Source: a virus
Virus record (IMG/VR): IMGVR_UViG_3300047089_000069
Coordinates: 1 to 42,187 of that record
Direction: 5' to 3' (one strand)
Length of the DNA: 42,187 nucleotides
The number at the start of each line of letters is the position of its first letter. The first letter of the stretch is position 1. Made by a program: the position numbers and the translations under genes. This document shows, piece by piece, positions 1,740 through 28,394 of the stretch. A model generated the notes under the pieces. That model searched no databases and was not told the DNA's origin. It saw only the letters and a list, made by a program, of their open reading frames with translations.

Positions 1740-1770
1740 GTTTCGATCCGCACTCCCGTGAGGGAGCGAC
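1740..1770 (-). repeat. Solitary type I-C CRISPR repeat-like unit R1 (terS-terL gap)
   Basis: Read on the minus strand, this 31-nt element begins GTCGCTCCC, has loop TCAC, continues GGGAGTGC and ends GGATCGAAAC. CGCTCCC pairs with GGGAGTG (seven pairs, one G-U). This matches the layout of type I-C repeats: GTCGC start, short hairpin, GGATYGAAAC-type 3' handle. It lies alone in the non-coding gap between terS and terL, in sense with both. An AT-rich stretch with a -10-like TATTAC (1794-1789) sits 18 nt upstream. There is no second repeat at array spacing. Read on the plus strand it gives the VSIRTP peptide typical of mis-translated I-C repeats. Confidence 0.85.
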
Positions 1771-1883
1771 TAAGCGAACTCGCTATTAGTAATAACGTGT
1801 TCTTCGCCGAGTTCCCCTCTGTAAACGGCTCAAGCAGCGTTTCGGGTAAGCACCTGGTAAGCGGTCGAGTCCACCAGCGTGGC

Positions 1884-2267
1884 TCAGTTCGGCTTCAAGT
1901 CGAGCGTTGGTCCTTCACAGTATTTCGCGGCGAAATCCTCGACGGACAGCGGCTCGTCCCTGACTACCTTGCGCACGGTGAGCGTCGCAGCCAAGTCTAT
2001 CGTTTGCAAATCAGGTAAAACCTTCGCAAGTAAACCTAGCGCGGCCCGTACTTGGGTCGAGCGCATTTTCCTCTTACCTTTGACGTGCTCGGTCAGAAGG
2101 TTGACGAGCATGCTTGTCTGGATCTTCTCGCGCACCCGCTGATCAAGAAACGGCGTGCGATGCTGACCTGGCCGTAGCTGGCTCGCGCTCTTGGACCTGG
2201 GCGGCGCCATCGGCTGCGGGGTTGGCTCTTTCGCCACGTATTGGCTGTGGAGCTTGCTGACTGGCAC
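1884..2267 (-). CDS. terS: Terminase small subunit (putative)
   Basis: The 127-residue protein would recognise phage DNA and start packaging with the large subunit encoded just downstream. The core FLDQRVREKIQTSMLVNLL followed by TSTQVRAALG-like and LLAKVLPDLQ segments (about residues 39-90) resembles the helical small-terminase family of podoviruses, in which a TQVRAA…LLKK.LPDL pattern recurs. The N-terminus is rich in Pro, Ser and Lys. I chose the GTG at 2267 because TAGGTGAG lies five bases upstream. An internal ATG at 2210 lacks a good ribosome-binding site. A consensus -35 box (TTGACA, 2373-2368) and a hairpin lie upstream, so this may be the first gene of the packaging and late transcript. 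Confidence 0.72.
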   Translation of the reverse strand: MPVSKLHSQYVAKEPTPQPMAPPRSKSASQLRPGQHRTPFLDQRVREKIQTSMLVNLLTEHVKGKRKMRSTQVRAALGLLAKVLPDLQTIDLAATLTVRKVVRDEPLSVEDFAAKYCEGPTLDLKPN

Positions 2268-2285
2268 GTGATCTCACCTACGCGA

Positions 2286-2312
2286 AAGCCCGCCAGTTGG
2301 CGGGCTTTTTTT
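2286..2312 (+). terminator. Rho-independent terminator reading on the plus strand
   Basis: AAGCCCGCC (2286-2294) pairs with GGCGGGCTT (2299-2307) around AGTT and is followed by seven T on the plus strand. No plus-strand gene precedes it within 2 kb, so it may block antisense transcription. In the minus direction it falls in the terS leader, with only a short T-tail. Confidence 0.75.
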
Positions 2313-2343
2313 GTGCTCCAAACGAGCAATATGACGATGCCAC

Positions 2344-2373
2344 AAGCATCGGCTTGCGGGTTGCCCCTGTCAA
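2344..2373 (-). promoter_or_regulatory. Candidate promoter for terS and late genes
   Basis: A perfect TTGACA lies at 2373-2368 on the minus strand, overlapping the stop of the upstream gene. At 17-bp spacing the -10 position reads GATGCT, which is weak. It precedes the terS leader hairpin. The element may be real, but the -10 is poor, or an activator may be needed. Confidence 0.35.
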
Positions 2374-3083
2374 GGATGGGCCCTAGAAGCCTCTAGGAGG
2401 CCCGTGGAGGCCCGTTGCAGCTCCAGGCTATCGAGCAACGACTCGCCCTCGCCAGGCAGCCCCAGCGCGCGCCAAGCGTCATTGAGGCGCCTTCTGACCT
2501 CAAGCCATTCATCCCTGTTGGCGACCAACGCCAACAGCGCCGGCAGACCGGTGCGAATGCTCTCGATCGTCTCGGCCGACGTTGCGCTGCGTCCTTCGGC
2601 CCACTGCTCGACCCTGACCGGGTCACCGACGCCGAACAGGCGATACCTGGGCATGACGCTGAATATCCGTGTCACCCAAATGAGCGACACGCCGGGATTG
2701 CGCTCCAGCATGATGCCGCCTGGCTTGCTCGCATCGTCAGCCATCGGCGCGCGCCGCATCCTCGGCCTGATGAGGAATGGACAAGCCCGCACCGCGAAGC
2801 TTGCACACTCGCAATGGCTCGGCGGCTCGCTGGTCGTGCGATTGATGGCGCACATGGGCCCGATGACGAATGCGAGATTTTTGTGAAGCCCCTGGCCGCA
2901 GATCCAACAGCGCCGCTGACGTACCGCAACACCGATCTTGTTGGTGTCGGCCGCGTCGAAACGCCAGCGGCCCTCGGTGTTGTCCCACGGCGTGAACCAA
3001 GGCACCGGGAAACCGCGCGGATCGATTGGCAAGTCACGCATCTGTGGTGGCAGCGGCGGCAGGCCCTCGCGATAGTTGCTCAT
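2370..3083 (-). CDS. Conserved phage protein with Cys-rich zinc-binding-like region
   Basis: This 237-residue protein is recognisable as a conserved uncharacterised phage protein. It opens with a Pro-rich MSNYREGLPPLPPQMRDLP, continues RGFPVPWF, then a CWICG knuckle (about residue 58-62), FVIGPMCAINRTTSEPPSH, CECASFAVRACPFL, and a C-terminal RNPGVSLIWVTR and GDPVRVEQWAEGR region. The paired Cys and His residues suggest a bound metal. No enzyme motif is seen, so no function is assigned. It is the last gene of the leftward replication block, 10 bp downstream of the preceding gene, and terS follows after about 100 bp. Confidence 0.8.
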   Translation of the reverse strand: MSNYREGLPPLPPQMRDLPIDPRGFPVPWFTPWDNTEGRWRFDAADTNKIGVAVRQRRCWICGQGLHKNLAFVIGPMCAINRTTSEPPSHCECASFAVRACPFLIRPRMRRAPMADDASKPGGIMLERNPGVSLIWVTRIFSVMPRYRLFGVGDPVRVEQWAEGRSATSAETIESIRTGLPALLALVANRDEWLEVRRRLNDAWRALGLPGEGESLLDSLELQRASTGLLEASRAHP

Positions 3084-3093
3084 CCGATCCTCC

Positions 3094-3663
3094 TCAATCG
3101 ATCCTGACGCCGCGCCAGTGCGCCGCCAGATCCTCCAGTGTCTCGACGAGTCGCTGGCTCAGTGCGAAGGCGTGGTGCTTACCGAGGCCGCCATCCTGCT
3201 GTGCGAGCTCGTTCAAGGTCCAGCCCAGGCCGGTGTTGGGATTGGCCTCGACCAGCACCTGGCGCAACAGCCGCTCCGATCGCCAGCCGATGCGGCGTCG
3301 GATGCTCGACAGCTGCACCTCGACCTTGCCGGCGCGCTCGATGGCTTTGGCGATGATGTCGTCGGCTTGCGCGGTCCTGACGCCGCCGCCTTCGAGTGCT
3401 GATCCGCCGAGGCTGATCTCCAGCAGGCGCTGATAGGTTCGGCCGGCGGCGTGCTCGCCTGGCCCGATGCGGCGCGCCATGAGCAGGCGATCGAGCGTGT
3501 CGACCGCGATCGTGACCCTGACCTTGCGCCGCCGCTCGATGCCGTATGGGTCGGCCACGGCTCCTGCCGCGAGCACACGATTAGGAAACAGCCCGACAGG
3601 CTCTGGCTGCGCGATAGCGTCGCCGACACGCTGGAACGTCGACAGGACAACAGGACGCCTCAT
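3094..3663 (-). CDS. Hypothetical phage protein (helical)
   Basis: This is a 189-residue protein that I do not recognise with confidence. The C-terminal half is helical: an IIAKAIERAGKVEVQL segment, then a Trp-containing ERLLRQVLVEAN stretch and a closing HW. The layout loosely recalls DUF6456-type replication and regulatory domains of alphaproteobacteria, but I cannot verify that. The start codon at 3663 overlaps the stop of the small ORF upstream (ATGA), which supports this start and suggests translational coupling. It sits between the helicase and the Cys-rich protein in the replication block. Confidence 0.65.
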   Translation of the reverse strand: MRRPVVLSTFQRVGDAIAQPEPVGLFPNRVLAAGAVADPYGIERRRKVRVTIAVDTLDRLLMARRIGPGEHAAGRTYQRLLEISLGGSALEGGGVRTAQADDIIAKAIERAGKVEVQLSSIRRRIGWRSERLLRQVLVEANPNTGLGWTLNELAQQDGGLGKHHAFALSQRLVETLEDLAAHWRGVRID

Positions 3664-3929
3664 GCAACCCCCCTGCGGCGGCAGGTTGCCTTACCGACTG
3701 GCAAGGGTTTGCGTAGGAAGCGTCTGCTGCGCCAGGAGCCGCAGCGACGGGGTGGGGGGGGGGCTTTAGCCCCCCCACCCCGCAGCCGACGCACCGACGC
3801 AAACCCGTAGAAATGTTGACGTAGAGAGAGATCGCTGTGCGTCGGTGCGTCGAGCTGCGGCGACGCCTGCCGACGCATCGCCGCAACCCCTTGCTGTGCG
3901 TCGTCGCGTCGGTCTGCGTCGGCAACCAT
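3660..3929 (-). CDS. Small basic ORF overlapping iteron-like region (tentative)
   Basis: An 89-residue ORF begins at an ATG inside the helicase stop (TGATG) and ends on the ATG of the next gene (ATGA). Such double overlap is typical of coupled phage genes. The peptide is Arg-rich and basic, with a Gly/Pro patch produced by a G10/C7 hairpin. The underlying DNA is full of a repeated octamer, so the frame may be open by chance in a region selected for DNA structure. The ten-G run also makes the frame vulnerable to indel error. No family is recognised. Confidence 0.4.
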   Translation of the reverse strand: MVADADRRDDAQQGVAAMRRQASPQLDAPTHSDLSLRQHFYGFASVRRLRGGGAKAPPPPRRCGSWRSRRFLRKPLPVGKATCRRRGVA

Positions 3930-3944
3930 CACCGCACCGACGCA
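3748..3944. repeat. Iteron-like repeats and G-tract hairpin beside the helicase gene (possible origin)
   Basis: The octamer CCGACGCA or its complement TGCGTCGG occurs at 3786-3793 and 3794-3801 (head to tail), 3838-3845, 3870-3877, 3915-3922 and 3937-3944. Near-copies lie at 3846-3853 and 3897-3904. At the left edge GGGGT and ten G (3749-3763) face C7-A-C4 (3770-3781) around CTTTAG, forming a strong hairpin with G-quadruplex potential. Clustered short repeats in both orientations plus a hairpin beside a RepA-like helicase and primase would fit a replication origin. The role is inference. Confidence 0.5.
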
Positions 3945-5569
3945 GCATCGACAAACTCGCGCATATGGCGATATTTGTCGGGTTTCAAGACGACCCGGAG
4001 CAGCTTCTCGTCGATCCACGTCTCGACGATCCGCGCCAATCGATGACGCCCCTCGGCTGTTTGAGTGTGAATGCCGAGCGCCTCGGCGATCGGCAAGCCG
4101 ACCCAATCGGCAGCGTTGCTCGCCAGGCGCCACAGGCTGCCGTCCTCTTGCCCCTTGGCGACACTCCACAAGGCTTTGTCGATATCGTGTTGCACGATGT
4201 CGCGGAACGGGCCGGGCGGCTCCCACTCGGTCACGACGCCGACGCTGTCGCCTTCGCTGCCGCCCGGCCCGTTGTCGAGCTTGTGCGAGCGGATCTCGAA
4301 CCACTCGGCCTCGTCGGCAGGCACATACATGCTGCTCTTGCCGTTCTCGACCCGGAAGAAGCGACGCCGCTCGCTGACGCCAAACCCGTCGGCCTCCTCG
4401 CGTGACATGGTGTTGAGCACCCGCGCGGATCGCGACGCAGCGATGAGCGCCGAGGCGCCGCGCGCATGGTCGATGGTGATTTCCTCGCCGATCGCCTTGC
4501 GCGAATGCTGCACCAGATCGATCGCGCAACGACAGTCGCGCGCCACCTCGGCGAAGATCTCGGCCACCGCGTTCATATGCACGTTGCTATTCTCGTCGAC
4601 CTGGTGCGTCGACACCAGCGGGTCGACGATCATGACGTCAATCTCGCGAGCCGCGATCGTGCGCTTGATCCAGTCAATGACGTCCTCGCCACGCGCCAAG
4701 TGGTGGCTGCGCAGCCCCGGCTCGGCGACCAGCAGCTTGATGTCGCGGCCCGAGGTGATGATCAGTCGGTCGGCCACCTCCGCGCCTCCGACCTCGTAGT
4801 GCCGCATGGCTGCGAGGAAGCGTCGCTTCAGCTCGTCGAGCGGGTCTTCGCCATTGTGATACCAGATCCTGAGAGGCTCCTCTGCCAGGTCGCCGACGAG
4901 GTTGCGGTGGCTCGCCATGGCCGCCACCTCGGCGATAGCCAGATTGGATTTGCCGGCGCCTGACAGGCCGACCGTCACGCTCATGAACTCGCGCACATAG
5001 TGCCGGCCGTAGAGCCACTCGCGTGGCGGCAGGATGGCTTGCGCCAGGTCGCCGATGAACTCAGGCAGCGGCCAGGTGGACGCCTGTGCGGCGGCCTTGG
5101 CCTTGTGCCGAGCGGACAGGTCGAGGTCGGGGTCGGCACCGTTGCCATGTGCAGGCCCGTTGGGGCGGCCCTCGGCGGCAAGCTTGGCATCGAACGACGC
5201 TACCATGCCTTCGAGGTCGCGGCGCTCTCGGCGACGATCCCAGCCCGCTGGCGCGATGGCCATGGTGGCGGCGAGCACCTGGTCGACCACCACCTCGCGC
5301 GGCATGCCGGCGTTCAACATCGAGGCCGTGACCGAGAGTTGCGTCGCATGCACGCCGCTCTCGCCGGCCCCCTGGTAGGCCATGGCCGCGAGCCTGACCT
5401 CGACGTCGACCGGCGGCTTGATGCCGAACTGCGCCCCGTGGCGCTCGAATAGGTTCAGCCCCTCAGTCGGCGAGGCCGCCTTGGCGCACTCGGCTGTGCC
5501 GGCCTGCAGCACCGGCTTGCCCCGCAGCATGCGGCGCAACCTGTTCAGTGCGCGCTCTCGCTCAGACAC
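3929..5569 (-). CDS. RepA-like replicative DNA helicase (RecA-fold ATPase)
   Basis: This 546-residue protein would unwind DNA at the phage fork, working with the primase encoded just upstream. Residues ~1-170 form an N-terminal region. Walker A is GLSGAGKS (201-208), an acidic WYHNGEDPLDE motif follows (236-246), Walker B is DVMIVDPL (311-318), and a sensor-like VQHSRK comes at about 353-358 before HARGASALIAASR (368-380). This order is that of AAA_25/RepA-type hexameric helicases. The C-terminal part (~430-546) looks like a winged-helix-type helical region. The start overlaps the end of the primase by 8 bp. The stop overlaps the next small ORF as TGATG. Confidence 0.88.
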   Translation of the reverse strand: MSERERALNRLRRMLRGKPVLQAGTAECAKAASPTEGLNLFERHGAQFGIKPPVDVEVRLAAMAYQGAGESGVHATQLSVTASMLNAGMPREVVVDQVLAATMAIAPAGWDRRRERRDLEGMVASFDAKLAAEGRPNGPAHGNGADPDLDLSARHKAKAAAQASTWPLPEFIGDLAQAILPPREWLYGRHYVREFMSVTVGLSGAGKSNLAIAEVAAMASHRNLVGDLAEEPLRIWYHNGEDPLDELKRRFLAAMRHYEVGGAEVADRLIITSGRDIKLLVAEPGLRSHHLARGEDVIDWIKRTIAAREIDVMIVDPLVSTHQVDENSNVHMNAVAEIFAEVARDCRCAIDLVQHSRKAIGEEITIDHARGASALIAASRSARVLNTMSREEADGFGVSERRRFFRVENGKSSMYVPADEAEWFEIRSHKLDNGPGGSEGDSVGVVTEWEPPGPFRDIVQHDIDKALWSVAKGQEDGSLWRLASNAADWVGLPIAEALGIHTQTAEGRHRLARIVETWIDEKLLRVVLKPDKYRHMREFVDAASVR

Positions 5570-6176
5570 GCCGCTCTCCCGTCAGCTTGAGGATCATCGT
5601 TCGCGTCGGCTCGCCGCGCTTCGAGTTGTGGCTGCCCGGCAGCCGCATGAGCCGCGACACCTCGCACACGGCCGGGTCGCCGGCCACGAGGAGGGCCATG
5701 CCGCGCATCAGATCCTCGGCGACCGCATGATCCTCTAGGGGCTCGGCAAGTAACCAATAGGCATGGATGCCGCCGCCCGAGGACACGATGATCGAGGGCG
5801 GCATGGCGAGCTTCTCCAGCCGCGAGGTCACATAGGCTTGCTTGTTGTCGTGCCCCAGCTCCGGGATGACGACCTTGTCATAGTCGATGTCGGCATGGAT
5901 GGCCGGCACCTGCCAGGCGTTGGCCTTGCAACGCAGCGAGCCGCGCGGCGTCGGGTTGGCGTCTGGCTTGAGCGTCGAGATGCAGAAGAACAGGCCCCTG
6001 CCGGGCCTGTCCCATTTCTCCGCGAAAGTGACGACCTCGGCAGGGTTGCGGGTCGCCACATAGCGTTCGCCGGGCTTCGTTCCGCGCTCGTTGGGCAGCG
6101 AGCAGACATAGACGTCGCCCTCGGTGCCCCGAAACAGTTCCGTCAGAAACCGGGTTGCTGCCTCACCATCCATCAA
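5562..6176 (-). CDS. Primase of the archaeo-eukaryotic (AEP/PrimPol-like) type
   Basis: At 204 residues this is a minimal catalytic domain for RNA or DNA primer synthesis. The motifs are in AEP order: HADIDYD with D96 and D98 as metal ligands, SSGGGIHAYW (132-141) containing the catalytic Ser and His, and RLMRLPGSHNSK (175-186) as the third conserved block. The N-terminus carries a YVCSLPNE segment. No Zn-binding tail or fused helicase is present. The helicase is the next gene, overlapping by 8 bp, so primase and helicase are probably made together. The assignment to AEP is firm. Whether it acts as a polymerase too cannot be told. Confidence 0.82.
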   Translation of the reverse strand: MMDGEAATRFLTELFRGTEGDVYVCSLPNERGTKPGERYVATRNPAEVVTFAEKWDRPGRGLFFCISTLKPDANPTPRGSLRCKANAWQVPAIHADIDYDKVVIPELGHDNKQAYVTSRLEKLAMPPSIIVSSGGGIHAYWLLAEPLEDHAVAEDLMRGMALLVAGDPAVCEVSRLMRLPGSHNSKRGEPTRTMILKLTGERRV

Positions 6177-6186
6177 GCCTCCTCGG

Positions 6187-7011
6187 TCAGAACGAGATGT
6201 TGTCTTGACCTGCCTTGCGCTGCTTTGATGCTCCTTTCAGGGGCGCCTTGCCGGCCTCCTTGACAGGCGCCTTGACAGCGACCTTGGGCGACGGGGACGC
6301 CTTCTCGGCCGGCAGGATGGCAGCCTGCTCCTCCTCCTCCTCCTCGGCCTCACTCGCCTCGATGGCGGCGCCGCTGTCCTCTTCCAGCACCGCGTCGAAC
6401 TCGCCTCGATGCACCCAGTCGGTCACCTTGAACAGCGGCGTGAATATCTTGCCATAGGCCTTGTTGGGGTGCCGGTAACTGTCGCTGAGCAGCGCTACCA
6501 CAGGCAGCGCGTCGGGCACCTGGCGTACATGCTTGCCGTAGATCGCGAGCAGCTTGGCGACGGCGCCGATGCCGCCCTTGCTCGCGGTGGCGAAGGTGTA
6601 GAGCTGGCGTGTGGCCGCGTCCATCAACAGCATCGAGTTAGACAGCTGCCACGGGTCGCGCATCTGCCCGCTCTGCTCATCGCGCTCCCAGTCCATCTGA
6701 TCGAAGTCGCCCAGCTCGGAGCGCTTGGGCGGCACGAACCCTTCCGCAACCCGGCCCATCTGGTAGTCGGTCGGCTTGTTGTCGTGCCAGTGTATCCAAC
6801 CGATCAGCAACCCATCGCAGCCAGCCACCAGCTGAGTGCCCTCGGCGATCTCGGTGTTGTCGCGTCCGCTCAACCATTCGCCCTTCGAGAACTTGAGTAG
6901 CAGTCCGATGATGCGGTTCTGGTTGACAGCGTCAGCATAGGCCTCGAAGACATTGCGCTGCGGCGGCATGGTCATGCCGGTGGTGGCCGGCCTGGTGATT
7001 TCGTTAGTCAT
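6187..7011 (-). CDS. Phage replication-block protein with SSB-like C-terminal tip
   Basis: The 274-residue protein has a globular part (about 15-200; RNVFEAYADAVNQN, LVAGCDGLLIGWIHW, YGKIFTPLFKVTDW), then a Glu run (about 220-232), a Lys/Ala/Pro-rich linker and the tip GQDNISF. A disordered linker ending in an acidic-hydrophobic tip with a final Phe is the design of bacterial SSB proteins, whose tip recruits partner enzymes. I do not see a standard OB-fold signature, so an SSB-like role is inference from the tip and from its place beside primase, helicase and nucleases. The start at 7011 follows a 78-bp purine-rich gap on the coding strand. Confidence 0.7.
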   Translation of the reverse strand: MTNEITRPATTGMTMPPQRNVFEAYADAVNQNRIIGLLLKFSKGEWLSGRDNTEIAEGTQLVAGCDGLLIGWIHWHDNKPTDYQMGRVAEGFVPPKRSELGDFDQMDWERDEQSGQMRDPWQLSNSMLLMDAATRQLYTFATASKGGIGAVAKLLAIYGKHVRQVPDALPVVALLSDSYRHPNKAYGKIFTPLFKVTDWVHRGEFDAVLEEDSGAAIEASEAEEEEEEQAAILPAEKASPSPKVAVKAPVKEAGKAPLKGASKQRKAGQDNISF

Positions 7012-7089
7012 GATCTTTGCTTTCTGTCCTCTGTTCCTGTTCTTAGCTTTTCTTCTCTCTTCTTCATTTCCCCCATCACCGCACGAGAT

Positions 7090-7314
7090 CTATATGCGGT
7101 GGCCGTTCTTGGTCTTTGCCTCCTTGGGCGTGAGCTTCAGCGAGCGGATTTCCTTGGCCCGCTCCCAGATGCGGCCGACTTGGCCTCGGCGCGCGAAGGT
7201 CATGGGAAGCTTGTTGAGGAAGCGGGCGCAGGCGCCACCGTCGTTGAGGTTGCGGATGCTCCGCTCCAGCAGCTTGGCGTCTTCTTCAAACTGGTGGATG
7301 TCGAAGCGGACCAT
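7090..7314 (-). CDS. Small hypothetical protein
   Basis: A 74-residue basic protein (MVRFDIHQFEEDAKLLERS… to …KTKNGHRI) starts at an ATG inside the stop of the Cas4-like gene (TGATG), which decides the start. It is helical and charged, with no recognisable motif. Coupling to the upstream exonuclease suggests the two are made in step. It may be a DNA-associated accessory factor, but nothing proves that. Confidence 0.7.
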   Translation of the reverse strand: MVRFDIHQFEEDAKLLERSIRNLNDGGACARFLNKLPMTFARRGQVGRIWERAKEIRSLKLTPKEAKTKNGHRI

Positions 7315-8348
7315 CACTCGGCCGCCTCCTTGACGACGGCCCCTAACCGGATCTGCAGCCGGTCCGATGGCTCGCCGACCGTCTCGAACTCCGAAAGGTC
7401 GAGGCCGGCCTCCTCGGCCGCCGCGCGCAGCGCCGGCCAGTCCCACGAGGGCCGGCCCTTCAGCGCCGACCAGGAGATCGAGATGCCGCCGGCATTCACC
7501 CGGCGGGTGCCGTAGTCGCGCAAGACTTGCTTGATCTCCTCCTCGGCTTCGCGTGTCAGCAGCTCCAGGGCCTCGGCGTTGGCCTTGTAGCGGGCGCGGT
7601 TTCCAGCGAGCCGCATCAATGCGCCGATCGCCACGTCGTCGACCGGCTCTTGCCGGCTCGGCACCTGACCGGCGCGCATGGCCGAGCACGAGCCGCGCCA
7701 GGCGCAATACTCGCACTCGGCGCCGCCCGCGATGTAGCCCTCGGGCCGCAGCTGCTCGGCGCTGTTCGCCGCGTAGATCGCCGCCGCCCGGCGCTTGGCC
7801 TGCTCGAATACACCTGCGTCAAAGGTGATCGTGAACTCGCGGCTCTCGTCGAGGAACGAGGCGTCGATGTAGCAGAGGATCGCGTGCGTCGGCTGATAGC
7901 GGGTCTGCGCGCGGATGAGGCCGAGTTGCACCTGGCACTGGAAGATGTGCTCGGGTTTCGCCTCCTCGATCTTGGCGCGCGGATCGATGCTCTTGCACTC
8001 GACGGTGAAGCACTCGTCCTCGGTGACGACGAGTCCGTCAGGCGTCGCCGACAGGCGGCTCTCGGGGTCGATGAAGGTTCGCTGATATTGCCCGGCATAG
8101 TGCAGGATGCCCTTGCCGAGATACCCCCGCAGCGCCTTGACCCAGAAGGCTTCAATCAGGTCGCCGCGCTTCTTGGCGCCCCAGCGATCGGCATAGGCCG
8201 GGTCAGGCGGCGAGCCGTGCTTGCTGAACCAGTTCTTGCGGACGCACTGGCCGATCTCCGAGGCGCCGATGCTCTGACTGCGGTCATGCGCCCATAGCCT
8301 CTGGGAGGCCTTGGCGTAGCGTGCGAGGGCCTCCTTGATCATACCCAT
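7314..8348 (-). CDS. Cas4/RecB-like PD-(D/E)XK exonuclease with Fe-S cysteine set
   Basis: The 344-residue protein carries the nuclease motif TPDG with D104, then the ECK triad (E117, K119) and a following QCQVQLGL helix (motif QxxxQ). Four cysteines are placed as in Cas4 and AddB-type Fe-S nucleases: C35 in the N-terminal SEIGQC.R motif, and C212, C215 and C221 in CEYCAWRGSC. These would hold a 4Fe-4S cluster. The family degrades DNA ends, usually for recombination. The start at 8348 has GGGAGA eight bases upstream, but it overlaps the previous gene by 65 bp, which is long. It ends on the next small gene (TGATG). In this phage it would act in recombination or DNA processing. Confidence 0.85.
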   Translation of the reverse strand: MGMIKEALARYAKASQRLWAHDRSQSIGASEIGQCVRKNWFSKHGSPPDPAYADRWGAKKRGDLIEAFWVKALRGYLGKGILHYAGQYQRTFIDPESRLSATPDGLVVTEDECFTVECKSIDPRAKIEEAKPEHIFQCQVQLGLIRAQTRYQPTHAILCYIDASFLDESREFTITFDAGVFEQAKRRAAAIYAANSAEQLRPEGYIAGGAECEYCAWRGSCSAMRAGQVPSRQEPVDDVAIGALMRLAGNRARYKANAEALELLTREAEEEIKQVLRDYGTRRVNAGGISISWSALKGRPSWDWPALRAAAEEAGLDLSEFETVGEPSDRLQIRLGAVVKEAAE

Positions 8349-9142: not shown

Positions 9143-9148
9143 GGCGGC

Positions 9149-9424: not shown

Positions 9425-9447
9425 GGTCATACCCTCGGGCGGAAGGT

Positions 9448-9493: not shown

Positions 9494-9586
9494 ATTTTTC
9501 TAACAACGCCAAGTAACGGTGCGGAGCCACCTAGAGCAGCTTCTAGTAATCTCTAGCGGTATCTAAGGAATATCGTGAGAGGTTGC

Positions 9587-9615: not shown

Positions 9616-9648
9616 CCGCGCCTGGCCGGGACGCAGGAGGGCGATGGC

Positions 9649-10107
9649 ATGAACCCAATCAAGCTCCTTGTGCTCTTGCTTATCGAGCTTGTCTTATTTG
9701 GTTGCCCAGCCGAGGCCGCGCATTGCCGGCTCGGGTTGGTCTACATCACCCATGCGCACCGATGCGTCGGCGACCGCTCGCGTCTGGCTCGGCAATATGT
9801 CTGGCCGCGCTGGCATTATGCGCATCTGCGGCGTCCGCACATTGCGACCCGCTGGTACGTCACGGCGCATATTCCTATTGAGTCGCTCCCGAACCGGAGC
9901 GCGGATCGAAACGTCGAGCCATCCCAGCAGGAGGAGGAAGGACCAGGCAAACGGGCGGACCCAGGCGCCGAGGCCACGCCTCCTCCGGCCTCAGGCGCTG
10001 CTTCTAGTCGCTCCCTCGCAGGAGTGTGGATCGAAACGCCGAACGCCTTCGCCCACAGCTTGCTTTTCCGCCCTCTCCCTGCCCCGATCATTTGGAGGCT
10101 GCCATGA
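9649..10107 (+). CDS. Signal-peptide protein whose ORF contains two CRISPR repeat-like units
   Basis: The ATG at 9649 has AGGAGGG about eight bases upstream, making it far better than upstream starts. Residues 1-23 (MNPIKLLVLLLIELVLFGC then PAEA) form a Sec signal peptide. A short basic, aromatic domain with two Cys follows (CRLGLVYITHAHRCVGD, WPRWHYAHLRRPH). From about residue 78 the ORF runs through repeat units R2 and R3 and the 94 nt between them, and this tail is probably not a conserved protein domain. Yet the frame stays open and the stop overlaps the next ATG (ATGA), so translation through the repeats is possible. It would be exported to the periplasm. Function unknown. Confidence 0.6.
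   Translation: MNPIKLLVLLLIELVLFGCPAEAAHCRLGLVYITHAHRCVGDRSRLARQYVWPRWHYAHLRRPHIATRWYVTAHIPIESLPNRSADRNVEPSQQEEEGPGKRADPGAEATPPPASGAASSRSLAGVWIETPNAFAHSLLFRPLPAPIIWRLP
9882..9912 (+). repeat. Solitary type I-C CRISPR repeat-like unit R2
   Basis: This is a 31-nt element on the plus strand beginning GTCGCTCCC and ending GGAGCGCGGATCGAAAC. CGCTCC pairs perfectly with GGAGCG. The G-C at the pair that is G-U in R1 and R3 is a compensatory difference. It lies in sense inside the first gene of the plus-strand module. Confidence 0.82.
10007..10037 (+). repeat. Solitary type I-C CRISPR repeat-like unit R3
   Basis: A 31-nt element begins GTCGCTCCCTCGC and ends GGAGTGTGGATCGAAAC. CGCTCC pairs with GGAGTG (one G-U). 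It is separated from R2 by 94 nt, much longer than the ~34-36 nt spacers usual in type I-C arrays, and no third repeat follows at array spacing. The reverse strand reads VSIHTPARE, the hallmark of a mis-translated I-C repeat. Confidence 0.85.
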
Positions 10108-10331: not shown

Positions 10332-10516
10332 CGATGCTGGCTCTCGGGCTGTTGGTCGGCGCTTTTTTGGGCGCGCTCGGCATGGCGATCGCCCAGACCG
10401 GAGCGCGCGCCGACGACGACCTGGATGAGGCTCGCCGTGACATCGTGATGACCCTGCAGCAACGCCGCCGGCGGCTGCAGGAATCGGAGATGCGCCGTAT
10501 GGGTGATGGCGCGTGA
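10328..10516 (+). CDS. Small single-pass membrane protein
   Basis: A 62-residue protein begins with one hydrophobic helix (MLALGLLVGAFLGALGMAIA, residues 3-22), followed by an acidic then basic cytoplasmic helix (DDDLDEARRD, QQRRRRLQE). Its ATG overlaps the preceding stop (ATGA), so the two genes are coupled. The layout resembles DUF1043/YhcB-like or phage inner-membrane small proteins, but no family can be fixed. A role in host-surface change or exclusion is possible. Confidence 0.68.
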   Translation: MTMLALGLLVGAFLGALGMAIAQTGARADDDLDEARRDIVMTLQQRRRRLQESEMRRMGDGA

Positions 10517-20800: not shown

Positions 20801-23800
20801 CTACCGTCCTTGACGACTAGCTGCTTGCCGCCGGGGCCATAGGCTGGTGTGCCTTCCGGCAAAGAGGTCTCCGTGGGAACAGGCTGCGCCTGCGCCGGTT
20901 GCTGGGCCCGTCCCGCCGGCGAGCCTGGCGCCACTGGGGTCGGCAAGGCCGCTGGGCTGCCGGCACCGGCACCCTTCTGCCAAAAGGAGCCATTCGACAT
21001 CGCGGCGTTGCGGCGCTGCTCCTGCGCCTGCAGATTGCGCAAGTGCGTGGTGTAGTCCTGTGCCTTGGCCAGGAACTCGGCCTGCGACTGGGTGGTGCTC
21101 GGCTTCAGCCCCATGGCCCTATTCATCTCGGACACCCGCACCTGGCCGCCGAAGATGGTGCGCAAATTGCCGAGGATGGTGTTCTGGATGTCGGCGTCGA
21201 TCGCCGCCGTGTTGGCGGACGCCTCAGTGCCCATGCCAGGCAGGCCAGAGAGCGCCTGCGCGACACGCCCGGTGACACCGAAATTCATCTTGCCGGCCTT
21301 GGCCTGCTCGATGGCGTTCTCGACTGTCGCCAGGTTCTCGTCGATCGCCGCGAGCGACTTGTTCGACTCGTCGACCAGCTTTTGCTGCGAGACGCTCAGC
21401 TCTACCTTGGGCATCGTGCCCGTGGCCATGTAGGTGTTGAACTCGGGTGTTCCCTGTTGCAGGCCGAGCTTCTGGGCCACCGGCAGGCGGGCGTTGTAAA
21501 GCATCTCGGGCGATTTTTCGATCGCGGCCGGCGGATAGAATGGCTGGCCATCCTTCTTGCCGCCGGAATGCATGGCAATGGCGCCAGGAAACTTGGCTTG
21601 CTGCGCCGGCGTGATGTCGACCACCTTCTCCTGATCCGGCGCGTCGATCGGCTCGGGCTTGCCGGTCAGTCCTTGGCGGGCCCAGACGCGGCCAGGGACG
21701 GTGGCATCTGTGAGGCGTTCTGCTTTGACCTCGGCCGGCGTCATGATGTGCCAAGGCTCTGCAGCACCCGCAACCTCGCTGATGGCATTGGTCGCAGGGT
21801 CGATCTGATAGCCGACGCCAGGCTTGGGGGTGAAACCAGGAAGGAGGGTGGCGATCTCCTGCGGTGACACGGCGCGCTTGGGCTGCGCGGCGCCCTCGGT
21901 CACGCTGATGTTGCCGAACGCATCCCGCTGATAAATGGCGCCGGGCTTGGGCGTGAAGCCAGGAATGGCGGCCAGCTCTTGCGGGCTGAGGATGGTCTTC
22001 GTCTTCTCGAACTGATCTTGGTGGCTCTTCTCGATGCCAGCCAGCATTTCGACGAACTTCATGTTGCCGGTCGGGTTGGCCGAGCCCGCTGCCGCCCGCA
22101 TCATCAGCGCCAGCAGCATCATGCGCTCGTCCGAGCCTGGCCTGGTGCGCGCCAGCGATTGCGCCACGGCGGGGCTCGTCGTCGCCGCAGCCGAGGCCGC
22201 CGGATCTCCGGCTGCGGCCGCCGCTGGGGTCGGCGGCAGCTTGACGGCCGGCGCCTTGTCAGGAGGAGGAGGCGGCGTTTCGGGTGCCTTGAGCGCCTCC
22301 AAAGCAGCCTGTTGAACTTGATTGCCGCGCTCGGCCGGTGTCATCGAGGCGCCCGGCACGTCCAATCCCGCCGGCGGCTGCACTGGCGCGGGCGCCGTGG
22401 TAGCGGCGGCTCCTGCGCCCACAGGCGGGGTGGTGCCGGAAGCATCAGGGGACGGTGCAGGAGCCGGTGCTGCGACAGGTGAAGGAGCTGCGACAGGTGA
22501 AGGAGCTGATGCCGTTACAACGGGCGGGGCTACGGGAGCGGGAGCTAGAGCTGGAGCCGCGTCGAACCCGGCAGCAGGCGGGAGTGCCGGTCTGGCCAAG
22601 GCTGATGGGTCCACCCTGGCGGCGGCTGTGGCCGGCGGCGGAACTGTCGGGGTGCCCAAACTCGCATCCAGCGGAGCCGGCGGCAGGATGTTCGACGGCG
22701 GCGCGCCGAGCTTGCCCTGCAGGCCAGGGGGCGCGCCGTGAGGCATACCGCCGCTCAACGCCTGGCGGGCCTCCTCCACGAATACCCCAGCTGTTTTGAG
22801 CATGTCGTCCGACTGCAAGACGCCAGGCGGCACGAGCTTAGCTACGGGCGTGTCAGGGGGCGCTTGTAGCAGCCTCACAGCGGCTTCAGGGCCCACATGA
22901 GAGGAGAGGAATGTCGCGACCGCCGGGTCGGTCGCCGTGGCCGCCGAAGGCACTGCCGGCATTGAAGGCCCGGCAGGTGCAGGTGGCACAAGTGATGGTC
23001 CGAGCCCTGCCGGCCTTACGGGTGGCAGCGGCGCCTGGACGAGTTGCGGATAGGCGGCGCCGGCAGCTGCTGCGGGCGCCGCTCCGGGTGCCGGGACATC
23101 GGCGAGCGCTGGTGCCGGTGTAGCCGTCGTGGTGTCTGGCGCCGGCCGATTACCGCCAGCCATTGCCACCGGCGCCGCTACCTGGCTGCCTGCTGTGGTG
23201 CGGCCGATGCCGTCCCACGGACCCACGCCGACCTTAGCTGCGCCATACCATTGACCCCAGCCATGCTGCTTCGCCTGGCGCAGCGCGAAGTCGATCTGAT
23301 CGTCGATCGTCGAAGGGTCGCGAGCATTCTTGCCGGTCGCCGCCGTGAACTGATCCCCCATGCCGCCGACATTGCCCATGCCGCCGCCGCCGGTCTTATA
23401 GTGCAGTTGAAGAGGGCCGAAGGAAGTATAGTTACCGGCCGCGTCTTTATCGCCGTAGTAACCGCTCTTGCCTTCGCTGCCATACACCTTGGCCGCGATG
23501 TTGGGGTCGATGCCAAGTTCCTGCGCCTTCGCTCGGATCTTACCCTCGACCGACGCCGGGTCGTAGCCGGGCGGGTTGACGCCAGAAGTCGTCGCGGGCG
23601 CTGCACCTGGCATAGCCGGCGCACCTGTCCCCGGTTGCAGGTTCTTATAGGTGTTGTAGATGTCGAGCATGCTCTGGCTCTCGCCCTGCTGGCGCTTCAG
23701 ATCTTGCAGCTTGAGCACCGTGGCCGTGTCGCCCGAGGCTGCCGCAGCCTGCATGGCACCGGCATAGTCGCCGTTGGCGAGCGCCGTCGCCAACGCCTGT

Positions 23801-23898
23801 GACTGGCCGGTCTTGAAGCTATCCTTGAGCGACGCGCCGAGGCTGTCGATGCCCTGGCCGAGCAGCCCGAGCCCCGACGAGAAATCATAAACGGCCAT
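20785..23898 (-). CDS. Ejection protein with lysozyme/transglycosylase-like N-terminal domain
   Basis: At 1037 residues this is the longest protein here. Residues ~120-235 (IRAKAQELGIDPNIAAKVYGSEGKSG in pieces, then TSFGPLQLHYK, ALRQAKQHGWGQWYGAA) resemble a soluble lytic-transglycosylase fold, with E in GSEGKSG as the likely catalytic acid. A long Ala/Pro-rich disordered stretch (about 240-620) follows. Near residues ~650-740 two tandem units share the motif …IPGFTPKPGAIYQ / LPGFTPKPGVGYQ. The C-terminus is helical. Local wall cleavage during DNA entry is the probable role. ATG 23898 follows GAGGAT and is chosen over a longer frame. Confidence 0.75.
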   Translation of the reverse strand: MAVYDFSSGLGLLGQGIDSLGASLKDSFKTGQSQALATALANGDYAGAMQAAAASGDTATVLKLQDLKRQQGESQSMLDIYNTYKNLQPGTGAPAMPGAAPATTSGVNPPGYDPASVEGKIRAKAQELGIDPNIAAKVYGSEGKSGYYGDKDAAGNYTSFGPLQLHYKTGGGGMGNVGGMGDQFTAATGKNARDPSTIDDQIDFALRQAKQHGWGQWYGAAKVGVGPWDGIGRTTAGSQVAAPVAMAGGNRPAPDTTTATPAPALADVPAPGAAPAAAAGAAYPQLVQAPLPPVRPAGLGPSLVPPAPAGPSMPAVPSAATATDPAVATFLSSHVGPEAAVRLLQAPPDTPVAKLVPPGVLQSDDMLKTAGVFVEEARQALSGGMPHGAPPGLQGKLGAPPSNILPPAPLDASLGTPTVPPPATAAARVDPSALARPALPPAAGFDAAPALAPAPVAPPVVTASAPSPVAAPSPVAAPAPAPSPDASGTTPPVGAGAAATTAPAPVQPPAGLDVPGASMTPAERGNQVQQAALEALKAPETPPPPPDKAPAVKLPPTPAAAAAGDPAASAAATTSPAVAQSLARTRPGSDERMMLLALMMRAAAGSANPTGNMKFVEMLAGIEKSHQDQFEKTKTILSPQELAAIPGFTPKPGAIYQRDAFGNISVTEGAAQPKRAVSPQEIATLLPGFTPKPGVGYQIDPATNAISEVAGAAEPWHIMTPAEVKAERLTDATVPGRVWARQGLTGKPEPIDAPDQEKVVDITPAQQAKFPGAIAMHSGGKKDGQPFYPPAAIEKSPEMLYNARLPVAQKLGLQQGTPEFNTYMATGTMPKVELSVSQQKLVDESNKSLAAIDENLATVENAIEQAKAGKMNFGVTGRVAQALSGLPGMGTEASANTAAIDADIQNTILGNLRTIFGGQVRVSEMNRAMGLKPSTTQSQAEFLAKAQDYTTHLRNLQAQEQRRNAAMSNGSFWQKGAGAGSPAALPTPVAPGSPAGRAQQPAQAQPVPTETSLPEGTPAYGPGGKQLVVKDGRWQPR

Positions 23899-23908
23899 GT
23901 GCTGATCC

Positions 23909-25354
23909 TCAGGCCGCGATGCCGTAGCCGCCCGCGCCGTAGCCGCCGAGGTTGGTGCCACCACCCCCGGCGCCCGAGCCGAACAGGCCGCCTATGCCTG
24001 AGAACAGCGAGCCGCCGAGCGTCGAGCCGCCGCCCAGGCCGAGGCCGCCGAGCTTCAGGAGATCGCCGCCCACGCCAAGCCCGAAATTGAGCGCCGTCGC
24101 CGAAGCCTGCTGCCCCGCCAGGCCGCCCTGGTTCACCAGCGGCAATTGCTGCCCGGTGAGCAGGTTGTCCTGGTTCACGAACTGGTTGGCGGCGCCCGTG
24201 TAGGCTTGTCCCTGCTGCGAGCCGTAGCCGGTCGCCAGGCCCGCGAGCTGCGAGCCGAGGCTGGTCGAGAGCAGGCCCGAGCCGGCGCCATATTGCCCGG
24301 CGAGGTTGGTCAAGGCCGTGCCCTGGCCGACATCGTATTGGCCGACCTGTTGCCCTTGGTTGACGGCATTCTGAGCTCGCGCCGTCGCCTCGTTCTGGGC
24401 CTGCTGCGCCAAGGTGAGGCCCGTCTGGTTGGCGAGGCCGCCTTGCTGTGCCGCCGTGTTCGCCAGGATCTGCGCCTGGTTCTGCCCGGCACCCGTGTAG
24501 AGCCCTGCCTGCGTCGTCCCTTGGGCGATCTGTCCTTGCGCAAGGTTGGTCTGGGCGCCGGCTTGTTGCCCAGTGGCCTGGAGGCCCGTCTGGCCGGTGT
24601 TGGCGAGGTTGGTGATCCAGCTTTGCCAGTTCTGGTTGGCGAGGTTGGCGGCGCGGTCCTGCAGCGCCGTGAGCTGGTTGCCCGAGCCGACACCACCCGT
24701 CGCGGCGGCGCCCCGGTTGACCTGGTCGAGCGCCTGATCGACCGCGTATTGATAGCCGGGAGAGCTGGTGAAGCGCTGCTGCGCCAAAGCCTGCGCGCCA
24801 GGACCGCCAAGACCAAGTGCACCACCGAGCGTCGTCTGCGCCTGGGCGCCAACCGTCGAGTAGGGGCTGAAAGTGGCGCTGATGTTGCCGAGCGTGTTGA
24901 GGCCCTGGCCGTAGCCTTGGTTGACGGCGCCGAGGCTTGCCCCAAGGCCGCCCGCGATGGCACCGCCGGCCGCCTGCCCGCCCTGGCCATAGATGTTCAT
25001 GGCCTGGTTTGAGCCTTGGGTGACATTCTGACCGGCCTGGCCGTAGCCGCCCGCCAGCAGCGCGTCGGCGTTGCCATAGCCGCCCAGCGCCGCGTTGATG
25101 GCGCCTTGGTAGCCTTGCGTCGTCGCCCCTTGGCCAGTCGCGTAGGCCTGGCGCAGCGCGTCCTGCGCCTGCTGCGAGCCGGCCTGCAGCGCCTGCTGGC
25201 CGGTGCCATAGGCCTGGCCGTAGGCGCCGAGGCTCTCGCCGAGGCCGCGCGTGATATCGCTGTTCGCCGCTGCTTGCTGGGTCGAGGCGAGGTTGGCGCC
25301 GAACACAGCGGCATTGCGTCCAGCCGAGCCGGAAAAAGCGTCGAAAAGGCCCAT
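23909..25354 (-). CDS. Gly/Gln/Ala-rich ejection protein
   Basis: This 481-residue protein is dominated by Gly, Gln and Ala in heptad-like helical repeats (QAQDALRQAYATGQG, GYGQAGQNVTQG, AQNEATARAQNAVNQG), ending in a Gly-rich tail with LFGSGAGGGG. Such low-complexity helical proteins accompany the ejection set of P22-like and related podoviruses and may line the DNA-delivery channel. ATG 25354 (MGLFDAFSGSAG) is preferred to an upstream ATG overlapping the next gene. The base composition suggests repeat expansion. Confidence 0.68.
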   Translation of the reverse strand: MGLFDAFSGSAGRNAAVFGANLASTQQAAANSDITRGLGESLGAYGQAYGTGQQALQAGSQQAQDALRQAYATGQGATTQGYQGAINAALGGYGNADALLAGGYGQAGQNVTQGSNQAMNIYGQGGQAAGGAIAGGLGASLGAVNQGYGQGLNTLGNISATFSPYSTVGAQAQTTLGGALGLGGPGAQALAQQRFTSSPGYQYAVDQALDQVNRGAAATGGVGSGNQLTALQDRAANLANQNWQSWITNLANTGQTGLQATGQQAGAQTNLAQGQIAQGTTQAGLYTGAGQNQAQILANTAAQQGGLANQTGLTLAQQAQNEATARAQNAVNQGQQVGQYDVGQGTALTNLAGQYGAGSGLLSTSLGSQLAGLATGYGSQQGQAYTGAANQFVNQDNLLTGQQLPLVNQGGLAGQQASATALNFGLGVGGDLLKLGGLGLGGGSTLGGSLFSGIGGLFGSGAGGGGTNLGGYGAGGYGIAA

Positions 25355-25358
25355 GGGA

Positions 25359-25610
25359 TTATCCCGCTGAAACGGTGAGGATGCCCGCATTCGACCAGAC
25401 CTGGCCGACCACATGCGGGTTCACGGTGGGGAGAAGAGAGGCGTCGGTCTTGGGCTGCAGGGTCGCGAGGCTGCCCGCGATCCCGAGCAGGAACTGCTGC
25501 AGCTTGCCCTCGTATTGCAGCTGCTGCACGGTCGGGTGGCCGCCGATGTCGTAGCGCGAGATGACCGGCTCAAGCAGCGGCGGCAGCTTCGCCGTGAAGG
25601 CGGTCGCCAT
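25359..25610 (-). CDS. Small structural-region hypothetical protein
   Basis: This is an 83-residue protein (FTAKLPPLLEPVISRYDIGG at the start, GKLQQFLLGIAGSLATLQPK in the middle). Its ATG lies in the stop of the DNA-stabilisation gene (TGATG). It is 4 bp upstream of the Gly/Gln-rich ejection gene. It may be a small tail or head-closure piece, but no family is recognised. Confidence 0.65.
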   Translation of the reverse strand: MATAFTAKLPPLLEPVISRYDIGGHPTVQQLQYEGKLQQFLLGIAGSLATLQPKTDASLLPTVNPHVVGQVWSNAGILTVSAG

Positions 25611-27046
25611 CAGGGCGGCCCGATCAGGTTCACGTCACAGCGGCCACCCCTGAATGTCGAGTAGACCGGCGAGGAGGTGTCGAGCCGAAAGCGGATGCCG
25701 TGCTGGGTGGCGATGCCGCCGATACGATTAACGAAGATGGGCCGCTGGAAGTCACCCTGCTGGCCTAGCCCCCGGCGCACAACCGGCGTCGACCAGGTGG
25801 CGCCGCCATCGCGCGAGGTCGAGATCCATAAGCTCGGGTCGGTCGAGTCCGAGGTGCCAGGCACCCCCATCCCGGTGGTGAAATCGAACTGGGCGCCGAC
25901 GCAGCGAATGCGGTGCGGGAATTGCTTGACCGGCCCGCTTTCGAGCCGTGCCATGAAGGCGACACCAAGCTCCTGGTAGGTGGTGAAACTGATCTCGGCG
26001 AGCTGCGTCGTCAGCGTGTCGCCATAATACCATTTGCCGTTGAAGTAGACCGAGCGAGAGGCGCGCCAGCTGTTCGAGTTGGCAGAGCGCCGCTCGTTCC
26101 AAAAACCGGTCGCGGCATTCAGCTCCCAGCAGAAATTCGGCCCCTTGACGACGACGGTCGGCCGACCGCCAGTCACATAGCAGGACATCTCGATCTGGGT
26201 CTTGTCGGCCTCGGCCGCGAGGTCGCGCTCGACATCCTTGTTGCTCACAGGGGTGGTGTTGAGGCCGTCGACCCGGCGCACCGAGTTGTCGGTCGCCACG
26301 AAGTATTGCGCCAGGCCCCAGCCGGGATCAAAGCCGGTGATCGCCGAGGGTCCGACCAGGCCGACCTGGATGACCCCGGCTCGGGCCAGCGGGAAGGGCG
26401 AGGTCGCGGCGTCCGAGTAGACGGTGCAGGCCTTCTTGCCCCAGGCGAAGAACAGGCCGCTTGCGCTCGTGCCACGCACCAAGCCGCCCGAAAGGTCGGC
26501 GAGTGCTTTCGATAGGGCGTTCTGGCTGTGATCGGAGTCACTCACCCAGATGTCGTTGACGCCTGAGGCGAAGATGGTTCCATCCGGCAAGGTGAAGAGA
26601 AAATAGCCGTCGAGAAACGACACCGAGTTTGCCGTCCCCACGTTGCCGTCAGGGTAGCCGGTGACCGCGCTCGACGAGACGGAGAAGGGCCCATTGGCGA
26701 CGCTCACAGCAACGACATCGGGCGTCGGGCTCCGGTTGTTCTTGGCCCAGGTGACTAAGTCGCTGCCGTTCAGCGCGCCCGAGAGCGGCGTGACGGCGCC
26801 CGAGGTCGAGACGGTCACCACGGCGTTGGCGCGCGCCGCATAAAGCGTGTTGTTGACGTCGATCTGGCCACGCGGCACCCCGACCAAAAGGTCGGCGAAG
26901 GGGGCGAGGCCCGGCACCCAGCGGTGCAGATCGATGGCGCCGTCCGCCTCGTAATAGCGGTTGACCAGGCGGCCGACCCCCTCGCCCGGCAAGTCGCCGG
27001 GCTGCGAGGATTGCGGGAAGGGAATGAGCAGGGGAGTGGTCACCAA
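25610..27046 (-). CDS. Packaged-DNA stabilisation protein (P22 gp10-like)
   Basis: A 478-residue, beta-rich protein that would join the portal and adaptor ring to the tail needle or hub and keep packaged DNA inside. The N-terminus (PLLIPFPQSSQPGDLPGEGVG, then LVNRYYEA) and the repeated beta-blade pattern (SVSFLDGYFLFTLPDGTIFASG, then IWVSDSDHSQN) match the gp10-like propeller family. Other landmarks are FFAWGKKACTVYSD and GWGLAQYFVATDNSVRRVDG. Its end overlaps the small protein downstream (TGATG), and its start overlaps the adaptor gene by 7 bp. Confidence 0.82.
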   Translation of the reverse strand: MVTTPLLIPFPQSSQPGDLPGEGVGRLVNRYYEADGAIDLHRWVPGLAPFADLLVGVPRGQIDVNNTLYAARANAVVTVSTSGAVTPLSGALNGSDLVTWAKNNRSPTPDVVAVSVANGPFSVSSSAVTGYPDGNVGTANSVSFLDGYFLFTLPDGTIFASGVNDIWVSDSDHSQNALSKALADLSGGLVRGTSASGLFFAWGKKACTVYSDAATSPFPLARAGVIQVGLVGPSAITGFDPGWGLAQYFVATDNSVRRVDGLNTTPVSNKDVERDLAAEADKTQIEMSCYVTGGRPTVVVKGPNFCWELNAATGFWNERRSANSNSWRASRSVYFNGKWYYGDTLTTQLAEISFTTYQELGVAFMARLESGPVKQFPHRIRCVGAQFDFTTGMGVPGTSDSTDPSLWISTSRDGGATWSTPVVRRGLGQQGDFQRPIFVNRIGGIATQHGIRFRLDTSSPVYSTFRGGRCDVNLIGPP

Positions 27047-27414
27047 AACGAAACCTTGGCGGGGCCGAACGACTGCGCCGCGATGGCGTCCATGCGGCGC
27101 AGGTTCAGCTCGATCGGGCCGGGCGGCCCGAGCGTGTCCTGGTCAGGCGGGATGTCGACGCCGAAGGTCGTCTTGAGCTGGACCGCGAGGCGCCGCCCCA
27201 GCTCGTCGGCGATACCCGAGGGCACCGTGTCGAGGTCGGCGATCGAGATGATGCCACGCAGCTGCAAGTTGGCCGCGAGCGCGTCGAGCTGATCAAGCGC
27301 CGTGAGCATGTCCTCAGGGCTCGGCGGATTGTCCACCGAGGCCCTGATGATGTGCTCAAGCGCCCGTGTCGCGATCCAGGTTGAGTCGCGAGTCGCCGTG
27401 ACCGCGAAGGTCAT
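27040..27414 (-). CDS. Head-tail adaptor (P22 gp4-like, putative)
   Basis: This is a 124-residue, mainly helical protein (LEHIIRASVDNPPSPEDMLTALDQLDALA in pieces). Size and position, just before the gp10-like gene, match the adaptor that binds the portal after packaging. The ATG overlaps the previous stop (ATGA). Sequence alone does not show the gp4 family clearly, so the name rests on gene order. Confidence 0.62.
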   Translation of the reverse strand: MTFAVTATRDSTWIATRALEHIIRASVDNPPSPEDMLTALDQLDALAANLQLRGIISIADLDTVPSGIADELGRRLAVQLKTTFGVDIPPDQDTLGPPGPIELNLRRMDAIAAQSFGPAKVSFW

Positions 27415-27830
27415 TTGTTCCGACGCGGGTCTTTGGCCTTCTCGTGCTTGGCCTTCTCCTCAAGCTCCTCGATGGCGGTGTCGAAGCCATTAAGCCAGGC
27501 GGCGTTCTTGTAGGCGTCGCGCTTGGCCCCGCTCATGGCCGCCTTGTGGCCAGCCTCGTATTGGCCCTCCTCGCCCGGCTGCGGGCTCCCCGGCGCCAAC
27601 GGCGGAACTCGCTCGGACTGCGCCAGCGGCTTGCCGTCCTTGCCCTCGGCCTTGCCCTCGACCTTGTAGTGCCCCGAGGTCGCGGCTCGCATGAGCATCT
27701 CGTCCTTCTGCTCGGCCGTGAGCTGCTTTTGCTGGTCGAGGTCGACGGGTTCGCCGTCCTTGAACTCGACCCCGAACCAGGTGACGACAGGCGCCGCCTT
27801 TTCGAGGTCGTGGTAGGTGATTTTGGCCAT
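27411..27830 (-). CDS. Structural-region hypothetical protein
   Basis: A 139-residue hydrophilic protein starting MAKITYHDLEKAAPVV and VTWFGVEFKDGEPVDL, then LTAEQKDEMLMRAATSGHYKVEG. The second half is Lys/Glu-rich and probably disordered or helical (IEELEEKAKHEKAKD). ATG 27830 follows GGAG by seven bases and is preferred to a longer frame running through the terminator. It lies between the capsid and adaptor genes, so a minor head role is likely. Confidence 0.7.
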   Translation of the reverse strand: MAKITYHDLEKAAPVVTWFGVEFKDGEPVDLDQQKQLTAEQKDEMLMRAATSGHYKVEGKAEGKDGKPLAQSERVPPLAPGSPQPGEEGQYEAGHKAAMSGAKRDAYKNAAWLNGFDTAIEELEEKAKHEKAKDPRRNK

Positions 27831-27850
27831 GGATGGTCTCCGATCGTGAG

Positions 27851-27889
27851 TTAACTTAAAAGTTAAAACCCGGCGCTCGAGCGCCGGGT
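27851..27889 (-). terminator. Leftward terminator after the capsid genes
   Basis: ACCCGGCGC (27868-27876) pairs perfectly with GCGCCGGGT (27881-27889) around TCGA. On the minus strand the stem runs into TTTTAACTTTT. A second small palindrome, TTAACTTAAAAGTTAA (27851-27866), lies in the T-rich tail. Partial termination here would raise capsid expression over downstream tail genes. Confidence 0.82.
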
Positions 27890-27898
27890 CCATTGGCA

Positions 27899-28333
27899 TC
27901 AGCCTGGGCTATCGATGAAGCCCTTGAGAAAGAGGGTGATGTTGCCGGCCGCCGGTGTCACGCCGGCCGCCGCGACGAGCAGCTGGATGTCTGTCTCGAC
28001 CGGATACTTGAACCCCAAGACACCAGCCGGCAAGACGTCGACCTTGCCGCCGGCGACGCCGGCCGTCGAGGCCGAGAGCAGACGGGCGGGAGTCGTCGCG
28101 TCGCCGATCGACAGTGTCAGCGCCGAGGCGGCCAGCGACGCCGTCTCGAAGTTCATGCCGGTGATCGTGAAGCCCGCCGGCACCTTGAACAGCTGGATGG
28201 TGTTGTTGATGGTGCCGACGTCGGTCGTGGTCAGCGCGATCGTGCCGCCCATGACCTTCTCGGCGCGCCAGGGGCCGTGGCTCGGCGTGCGCCGAGCCTC
28301 GGTGATCGCATAAGCAACTCTATTGACTGCCAT
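27899..28333 (-). CDS. Putative capsid decoration (cement) protein
   Basis: The 144-residue protein is rich in Ala, Thr, Gly and Val with beta-strand-like segments (GTIALTTTDVGTINNTIQLF, FTITGMNFETASLAASALTL). It follows the major capsid gene directly, which is where podoviruses place head-decoration or fibre-like cement proteins. ATG 28333 has GAGGTAA six bases upstream. No enzymatic motif. The leader of this gene contains the repeat unit R4. Confidence 0.65.
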   Translation of the reverse strand: MAVNRVAYAITEARRTPSHGPWRAEKVMGGTIALTTTDVGTINNTIQLFKVPAGFTITGMNFETASLAASALTLSIGDATTPARLLSASTAGVAGGKVDVLPAGVLGFKYPVETDIQLLVAAAGVTPAAGNITLFLKGFIDSPG

Positions 28334-28365
28334 TGTCGTTTACCTCGCAGAGGTTGGCTTGTGGG

Positions 28366-28394
28366 GGTTTCTATCCACGCCCCGAGAGGGGCGA
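28366..28394 (-). repeat. Solitary type I-C CRISPR repeat-like unit R4 (after the capsid gene)
   Basis: This 29-nt element on the minus strand begins GTCGCCCC, has loop TCTC and ends GGGGCGTGGATAGAAAC. CGCCCC pairs perfectly with GGGGCG. It starts 5 nt after the major-capsid stop and lies 32 nt before the next start codon, in sense with both. The stem bases differ from R1-R3 while pairing is kept. It lacks the T-tract of a terminator. Read on the plus strand it gives VSIHAPRGAT, the classic I-C repeat artefact. Confidence 0.83.

Follow-up and report, generated by a model that had tools for sequence, protein, structure and literature searches.

Four dispersed type I-C CRISPR repeat mimics in a temperate phage are candidate RNA decoys

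Why should a phage genome that holds no CRISPR (clustered regularly interspaced short palindromic repeats) array carry several scattered single copies of a CRISPR repeat? The question is raised by IMGVR_UViG_3300047089_000069, a complete IMG/VR virus record of 42,187 nucleotides (nt), which we analyzed in full and refer to as the window. It has direct terminal repeats of 159 nt and encodes portal, capsid, head-closure, integrase, primase/polymerase and RecE-type genes; by its gene content it is a temperate phage. An earlier, sequence-only reading had noticed four solitary type I-C repeat-like units in it (U1-U4, Table 1) and proposed a candidate RNA anti-CRISPR (Racr) system. Our analysis suggests that U1-U4 are probably mimics of a host type I-C repeat embedded in phage mRNAs and serving, by analogy, as Racr-type decoys.

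All four units are present at the places first proposed for them, apart from a shift of one base in U4. The handle motif GGATNGAAAC occurs four times in the window against 0.17 occurrences expected, the spaced unit pattern likewise has four matches with none for a reversed-pattern control, and Markov shuffles of the window produced no match at the score of U1-U4. We built a covariance model, R1, from 15 array-type I-C repeats, mostly of Hyphomicrobiales, excluding window sequences to avoid circularity. Run over the whole window with filters off, R1 matched only U1-U4 (E 2e-10, 2e-10, 9e-10 and 3e-9); the best match after these has an E of 1.3. Rfam gave no match. The units are accompanied by neither an array nor a cas operon, as had been claimed: no further unit was found in the window, and a scan of 10 window proteins for defence genes gave a single weak Cas4-like match, which is the RecE-type exonuclease.

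Units like U1-U3 were sought in 84,980 genomes; of the 85 stretches returned, most are alphaproteobacterial arrays. The array repeat GTCGCTCCCTCACGGGAGCGCGGATCGAAAC is one edit from U1 (97%), the difference being a single C to T in U1 that makes a G.U pair, and is present in 215 copies in the fetched arrays of Xanthobacter, Enterovirga, Pannonibacter and Bosea. In Xanthobacter oligotrophicus, 65 copies adjoin the genes for Cas7/Csd2, Cas8c/Csd1, Cas3 and Cas5d, so that the model repeat is of type I-C by its neighbours and not by look alone. Cas5d is present in six of the eight genomes with U1-like repeats. The units match I-C repeats across the stem, the closing bases and the 11-nt handle; they show the high similarity to a known I-C repeat by which solitary repeat units (SRUs) are recognized, and U1 clearly passes the 90% identity rule of SRUFinder. 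As a chromosomal array beside I-C cas genes has a repeat that differs from U1 at one position, the proposed mimicry of I-C repeats is strongly supported. A mobile palindromic repeat of the repetitive extragenic palindromic (REP) or Rickettsia-palindromic-element type, spread over genes and gaps and resembling CRISPR repeats incidentally, could account for the palindromic core and for in-frame placement at gene linker sites. This origin is extremely unlikely: the I-C repeat is matched over its full length, the unpaired handle included, the multi-copy pattern matches in the genome collection are arrays (the 65 copies of Xanthobacter all lie within one), and target-site duplication was not seen at the units.

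Predicted folding gave -12.1 (z -2.2) for U1, -10.6 (z -1.4) for U2, -8.0 (z -0.8) for U3 and -12.2 (z -2.3) for U4. The earlier view that the stem varies while pairing is kept holds in part: we see one compensatory pair (C-G for U-A in U4) and two G.U wobbles (U1 and U3), but U2 and U3 no longer form the top pair. Ordinary mRNA hairpins acting in stability or attenuation, or decayed units that no longer function, might fold in this way, and both the poor folding of U3 and a terminator-like hairpin that the related contig L008 carries in its U4 gap are in keeping with them. We nevertheless judge this explanation unlikely, because a plain hairpin gives no role to the conserved unpaired handle GGATCGAAAC, the T-run after U4 is absent, and the four units occur in one recent lineage.

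That lineage is delimited by comparison with related contigs. In contigs 99.9-100% identical to the window, U1 and U4 are kept wherever covered. Relatives that are 80-92% identical to the window keep the flanks of the slots and lack the units. The U1 slot holds other sequence in five of their contigs (L184, L185, L186, L008 and L211), L187 has the gene of U2 and U3 with different linker sequence and no units, the U4 slot is without a unit in L007 and L008, and R1 found no match in 128 kb of relatives. In L186 the U1 slot is bracketed on both sides by flanks that it shares with the window, CGCTTA and GCGCGACGACTG. The idea of another repeat type in the L184 and L186 slots was abandoned on visual inspection alone. 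Absence from related phages had been named beforehand as an outcome that would speak against decoys, and it is what we observe at 80-92% identity; it does not refute them. The empty slots of the relatives suggest that the units were gained together recently in this lineage, loss by all relatives being less likely, and the sequence comparison argues for such a lineage-specific gain over an ancient conserved structural RNA. We count the presence of all four units in one lineage, and of none in relatives, in favour of decoys. Relatives with the same slots minus the units are a natural empty-site control.

U1 itself is flanked by two short motifs that relatives retain, GTTATTACTAATAGCGAG and GCGACGACTGTATAGTCGCC (window 1771-1797 and 1718-1738, minus strand), the latter palindromic; they are possibly a late-operon control region. 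A consensus search for sigma-70 promoters near U1-U3 found none.

The placement of U2 and U3 proved different from that first pictured: both lie inside a conserved coding gene that the sequence-only reading had missed. Its homologue in L187 has 149 residues against 152, conserves the core and the C-terminus and overlaps the next start, which indicates a real gene. U2 and U3 fill two variable linkers (ESLPNRSADRN and SRSLAGVWIET) in different frames, and their likeness must therefore lie at the nucleotide level; protein selection cannot explain it. The intergenic position used to recognize SRUs is found for U1 and U4 and fails for U2 and U3, and is a survey search filter rather than a functional requirement. 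SRUFinder masks open reading frames (ORFs) and discards full matches less than 100 bp apart (PMC10651486), so it would miss the U2/U3 pair, whose gap is 94 nt. A comparison of the DNA of the U2/U3 region with known phages gave no match. All four units are in sense with the transcripts containing them, in agreement with the first description.

Could the units instead be guides? The DNA 3' of U1, U2 and U3 is ordinary flank, kept in relatives without the unit, and hence not captured spacers. The protospacer-adjacent motif (PAM) of type I-C is TTC, and the rest of the window has no match to a 9-nt seed next to TTC. If the units were guides like CRISPR RNAs (crRNAs) or mini-array remnants, Cascade loaded with unit-adjacent sequence would repress or cut a target, in inter-phage competition or CreA-like regulation. 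The handle is intact, as this would require, and phage mini-arrays, which also place host-type repeats in a phage, are known (PMC11656645). In contrast to them, the units here have no spacer between repeats, no second repeat at spacer distance and flanks of ancestral DNA. Together with the lack of a seed target, these features eliminate mini-arrays and leave CreA-type guides unlikely, and we consider guide function of either kind highly improbable.

The decoy interpretation draws on RacrIC1, a solitary I-C unit of a Bifidobacterium prophage that rescued phage growth from a I-C system (PMC10651486). By analogy, the most likely role of U1-U4 is to attract Cas5c and Cas7 to phage mRNA. They share with RacrIC1 a single I-C repeat mimic with hairpin and handle, in sense, in a temperate phage, with no spacer and no cas genes found; they differ from it in being four copies in separate transcription units, two of them intragenic and two 94 nt apart. 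The carriers would be the mRNAs of these transcription units, U2 and U3 lying in a rightward operon next to a helix-turn-helix gene, U1 in the late-operon leader and U4 after the capsid gene. Host Cas5c would bind and cut the hairpin to release RNAs in which the handle runs on into ordinary phage mRNA. Cas5c with Cas7, perhaps also Cas8c, would be consumed on these useless RNAs instead of crRNAs, as with Racrs. With the handle kept, the units may form fuller yet useless complexes. The repeat ends in AAC, and it is this triplet, not a TTC PAM, that adjoins the would-be guide, which should prevent self-attack as in a normal array. A more specific picture, which we put forward tentatively, is that of decoys distributed over mRNAs of different stages: handle-retaining mimics, some in coding sequence, from which Cas5c would supply Cascade with dud guides made of the phage's own mRNA, the phage being spared because the repeat occupies the PAM position. 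The trick would be of a known kind, and the variant is one of layout: multiple, sense, intragenic copies with an intact handle.

Several observations weigh against decoys. The nearest repeats found for U2, U3 and U4 are 3, 2-3 and 4 edits away, and the weak hairpin of U3 is missing from the predicted fold of its 101-nt context. RacrIF1, of type I-F, likewise mimics a repeat hairpin to divert Cas proteins, but its product lacks the 5' handle (PMC10651486). The mechanism demonstrated for I-F needs such a handle-less RNA, whereas U1-U4 keep the handle and I-C employs Cas5c, not Cas6, so the details must differ. Among 1928 spacers of similar arrays, none gave a convincing match to the window, the best being 17 nt. 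Cutting at U2 or U3 would also sever the transcript of the gene in which they lie. Cuts of this sort could themselves be the function, if an active host I-C system altered phage gene expression through Cas5c-dependent mRNA processing. It might, for example, shorten the late leader or disable the gene around U2 and U3, and Cas proteins would not be titrated to any meaningful extent. Units inside a gene (U2 and U3) and in mRNA leaders (U1 and U4) would suit such a switch; we think it improbable, as relatives control the same genes without units and a phage has no reason to hand the host such control.

Decoys further presuppose hosts with I-C systems. Terminase relatives were found in Hyphomicrobiales genomes, and matching I-C systems also exist in this order. 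In the six best genomes with terminase relatives, Cas5d and units are both absent. This absence fits units useful only in I-C hosts, yet it proves little, since not every genome of the order has Cas5d. The exact repeat class was found in one of the 397 Hyphomicrobiales genomes sampled, namely the centre genome itself. The capsid protein is not encoded in 13 genomes with similar repeats or solitary matches.

Solitary I-C units are not confined to this phage. We found I-C-like repeats in 88 viral stretches; 54 of 70 non-redundant solitary cases are intergenic, and the strand agrees with that of the upstream gene in 39 of 47 solitary units (p=6e-6), both counts being approximate because they rest on a rough gene caller. 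The sense bias bears on whether the units are DNA-level repeat mimics that divert Cas1-Cas2 during spacer acquisition or integration. It points to RNA, and with no leader-like sequence identified, an integration decoy is hardly credible. The sequence-only reading had regarded several dispersed copies as a new layout. The multi-copy layout is real, but it is not unique: among 39 other viral records, chosen for holding at least one unit and searched with R1, 12 contain at least one pair of units separated by more than 500 nt (G014, G017, G022, G023, G030, G031, G032, G042, G043, G045, G055 and G056), some of them also containing arrays. By the loci compared, G014 and G032 represent a single phage, which leaves 11 distinct phages. 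Three or four I-C units each, several of them dispersed, are present in L194 (G023), G042 and G031, which are candidates for the same layout. In the related phages L120 and L172, whose flanks are 91% identical, the I-C unit differs at one loop base only; the intact stem and handle hint at constraint. Should the units work, decoys that mimic repeats would not have to be dedicated small RNAs, since phage mRNAs and even genes can hold several, and catalogues that mask genes and demand lone copies would undercount RNA anti-CRISPRs.

Table 1. Repeat units and adjacent genes in the window
Feature	Position	Strand	Remarks
U1, solitary I-C repeat unit GTCGCTCCCTCACGGGAGTGCGGATCGAAAC	1740..1770	-	5' leader of terminase/late operon
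U2, solitary I-C repeat unit	9882..9912	+	inside gene 9649-10107
U3, solitary I-C repeat unit	10007..10037	+	inside gene 9649-10107; reading frame differs from U2
U4, 29-nt solitary I-C repeat unit	28367..28395	-	between major capsid gene and next gene
Terminase large subunit	1..1623	-	runs across joined ends; 3' (downstream) of U1; start codon uncertain
Gene containing U2 and U3, 152 aa, signal-peptide-like start	9649..10107	+	stop overlaps next start (ATGA)
Next gene of rightward operon, 75 aa	10104..10331	+	no family match
Gene 33 nt downstream of U4	27899..28333	-	
Major capsid protein	28400..29602	-	phrog_334; directly upstream of U4

The window shows several other features. The terminase large subunit has a GC-rich insertion of about 45 residues (window 496-648, minus strand) that is absent or shorter in L184, L186 and L008 and is also read in another frame as part of a small ORF (411-809); the terminase reading of L185 contains one in-frame stop. 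Between the rightward operon and the integrase, L187 has about 250 nt extra (its positions 2095-2348, against window 10498-10499), past which identity to the window climbs from 79% to 94%. The early-gene region holds a long imperfect inverted/direct repeat with 48-nt arms that are 71% complementary (window 3834-3944). A tRNA-Ala call by ARAGORN (window 23964-24044, minus strand) overlaps the ends of two long ORFs and is probably spurious. Four tandem repeats of 45 nt, 71-80% alike, at window 35328-35510 lie within the ORF 35180-35599 (minus strand) and encode the proline-rich repeat PPWAQVPPGPVDPGYS.
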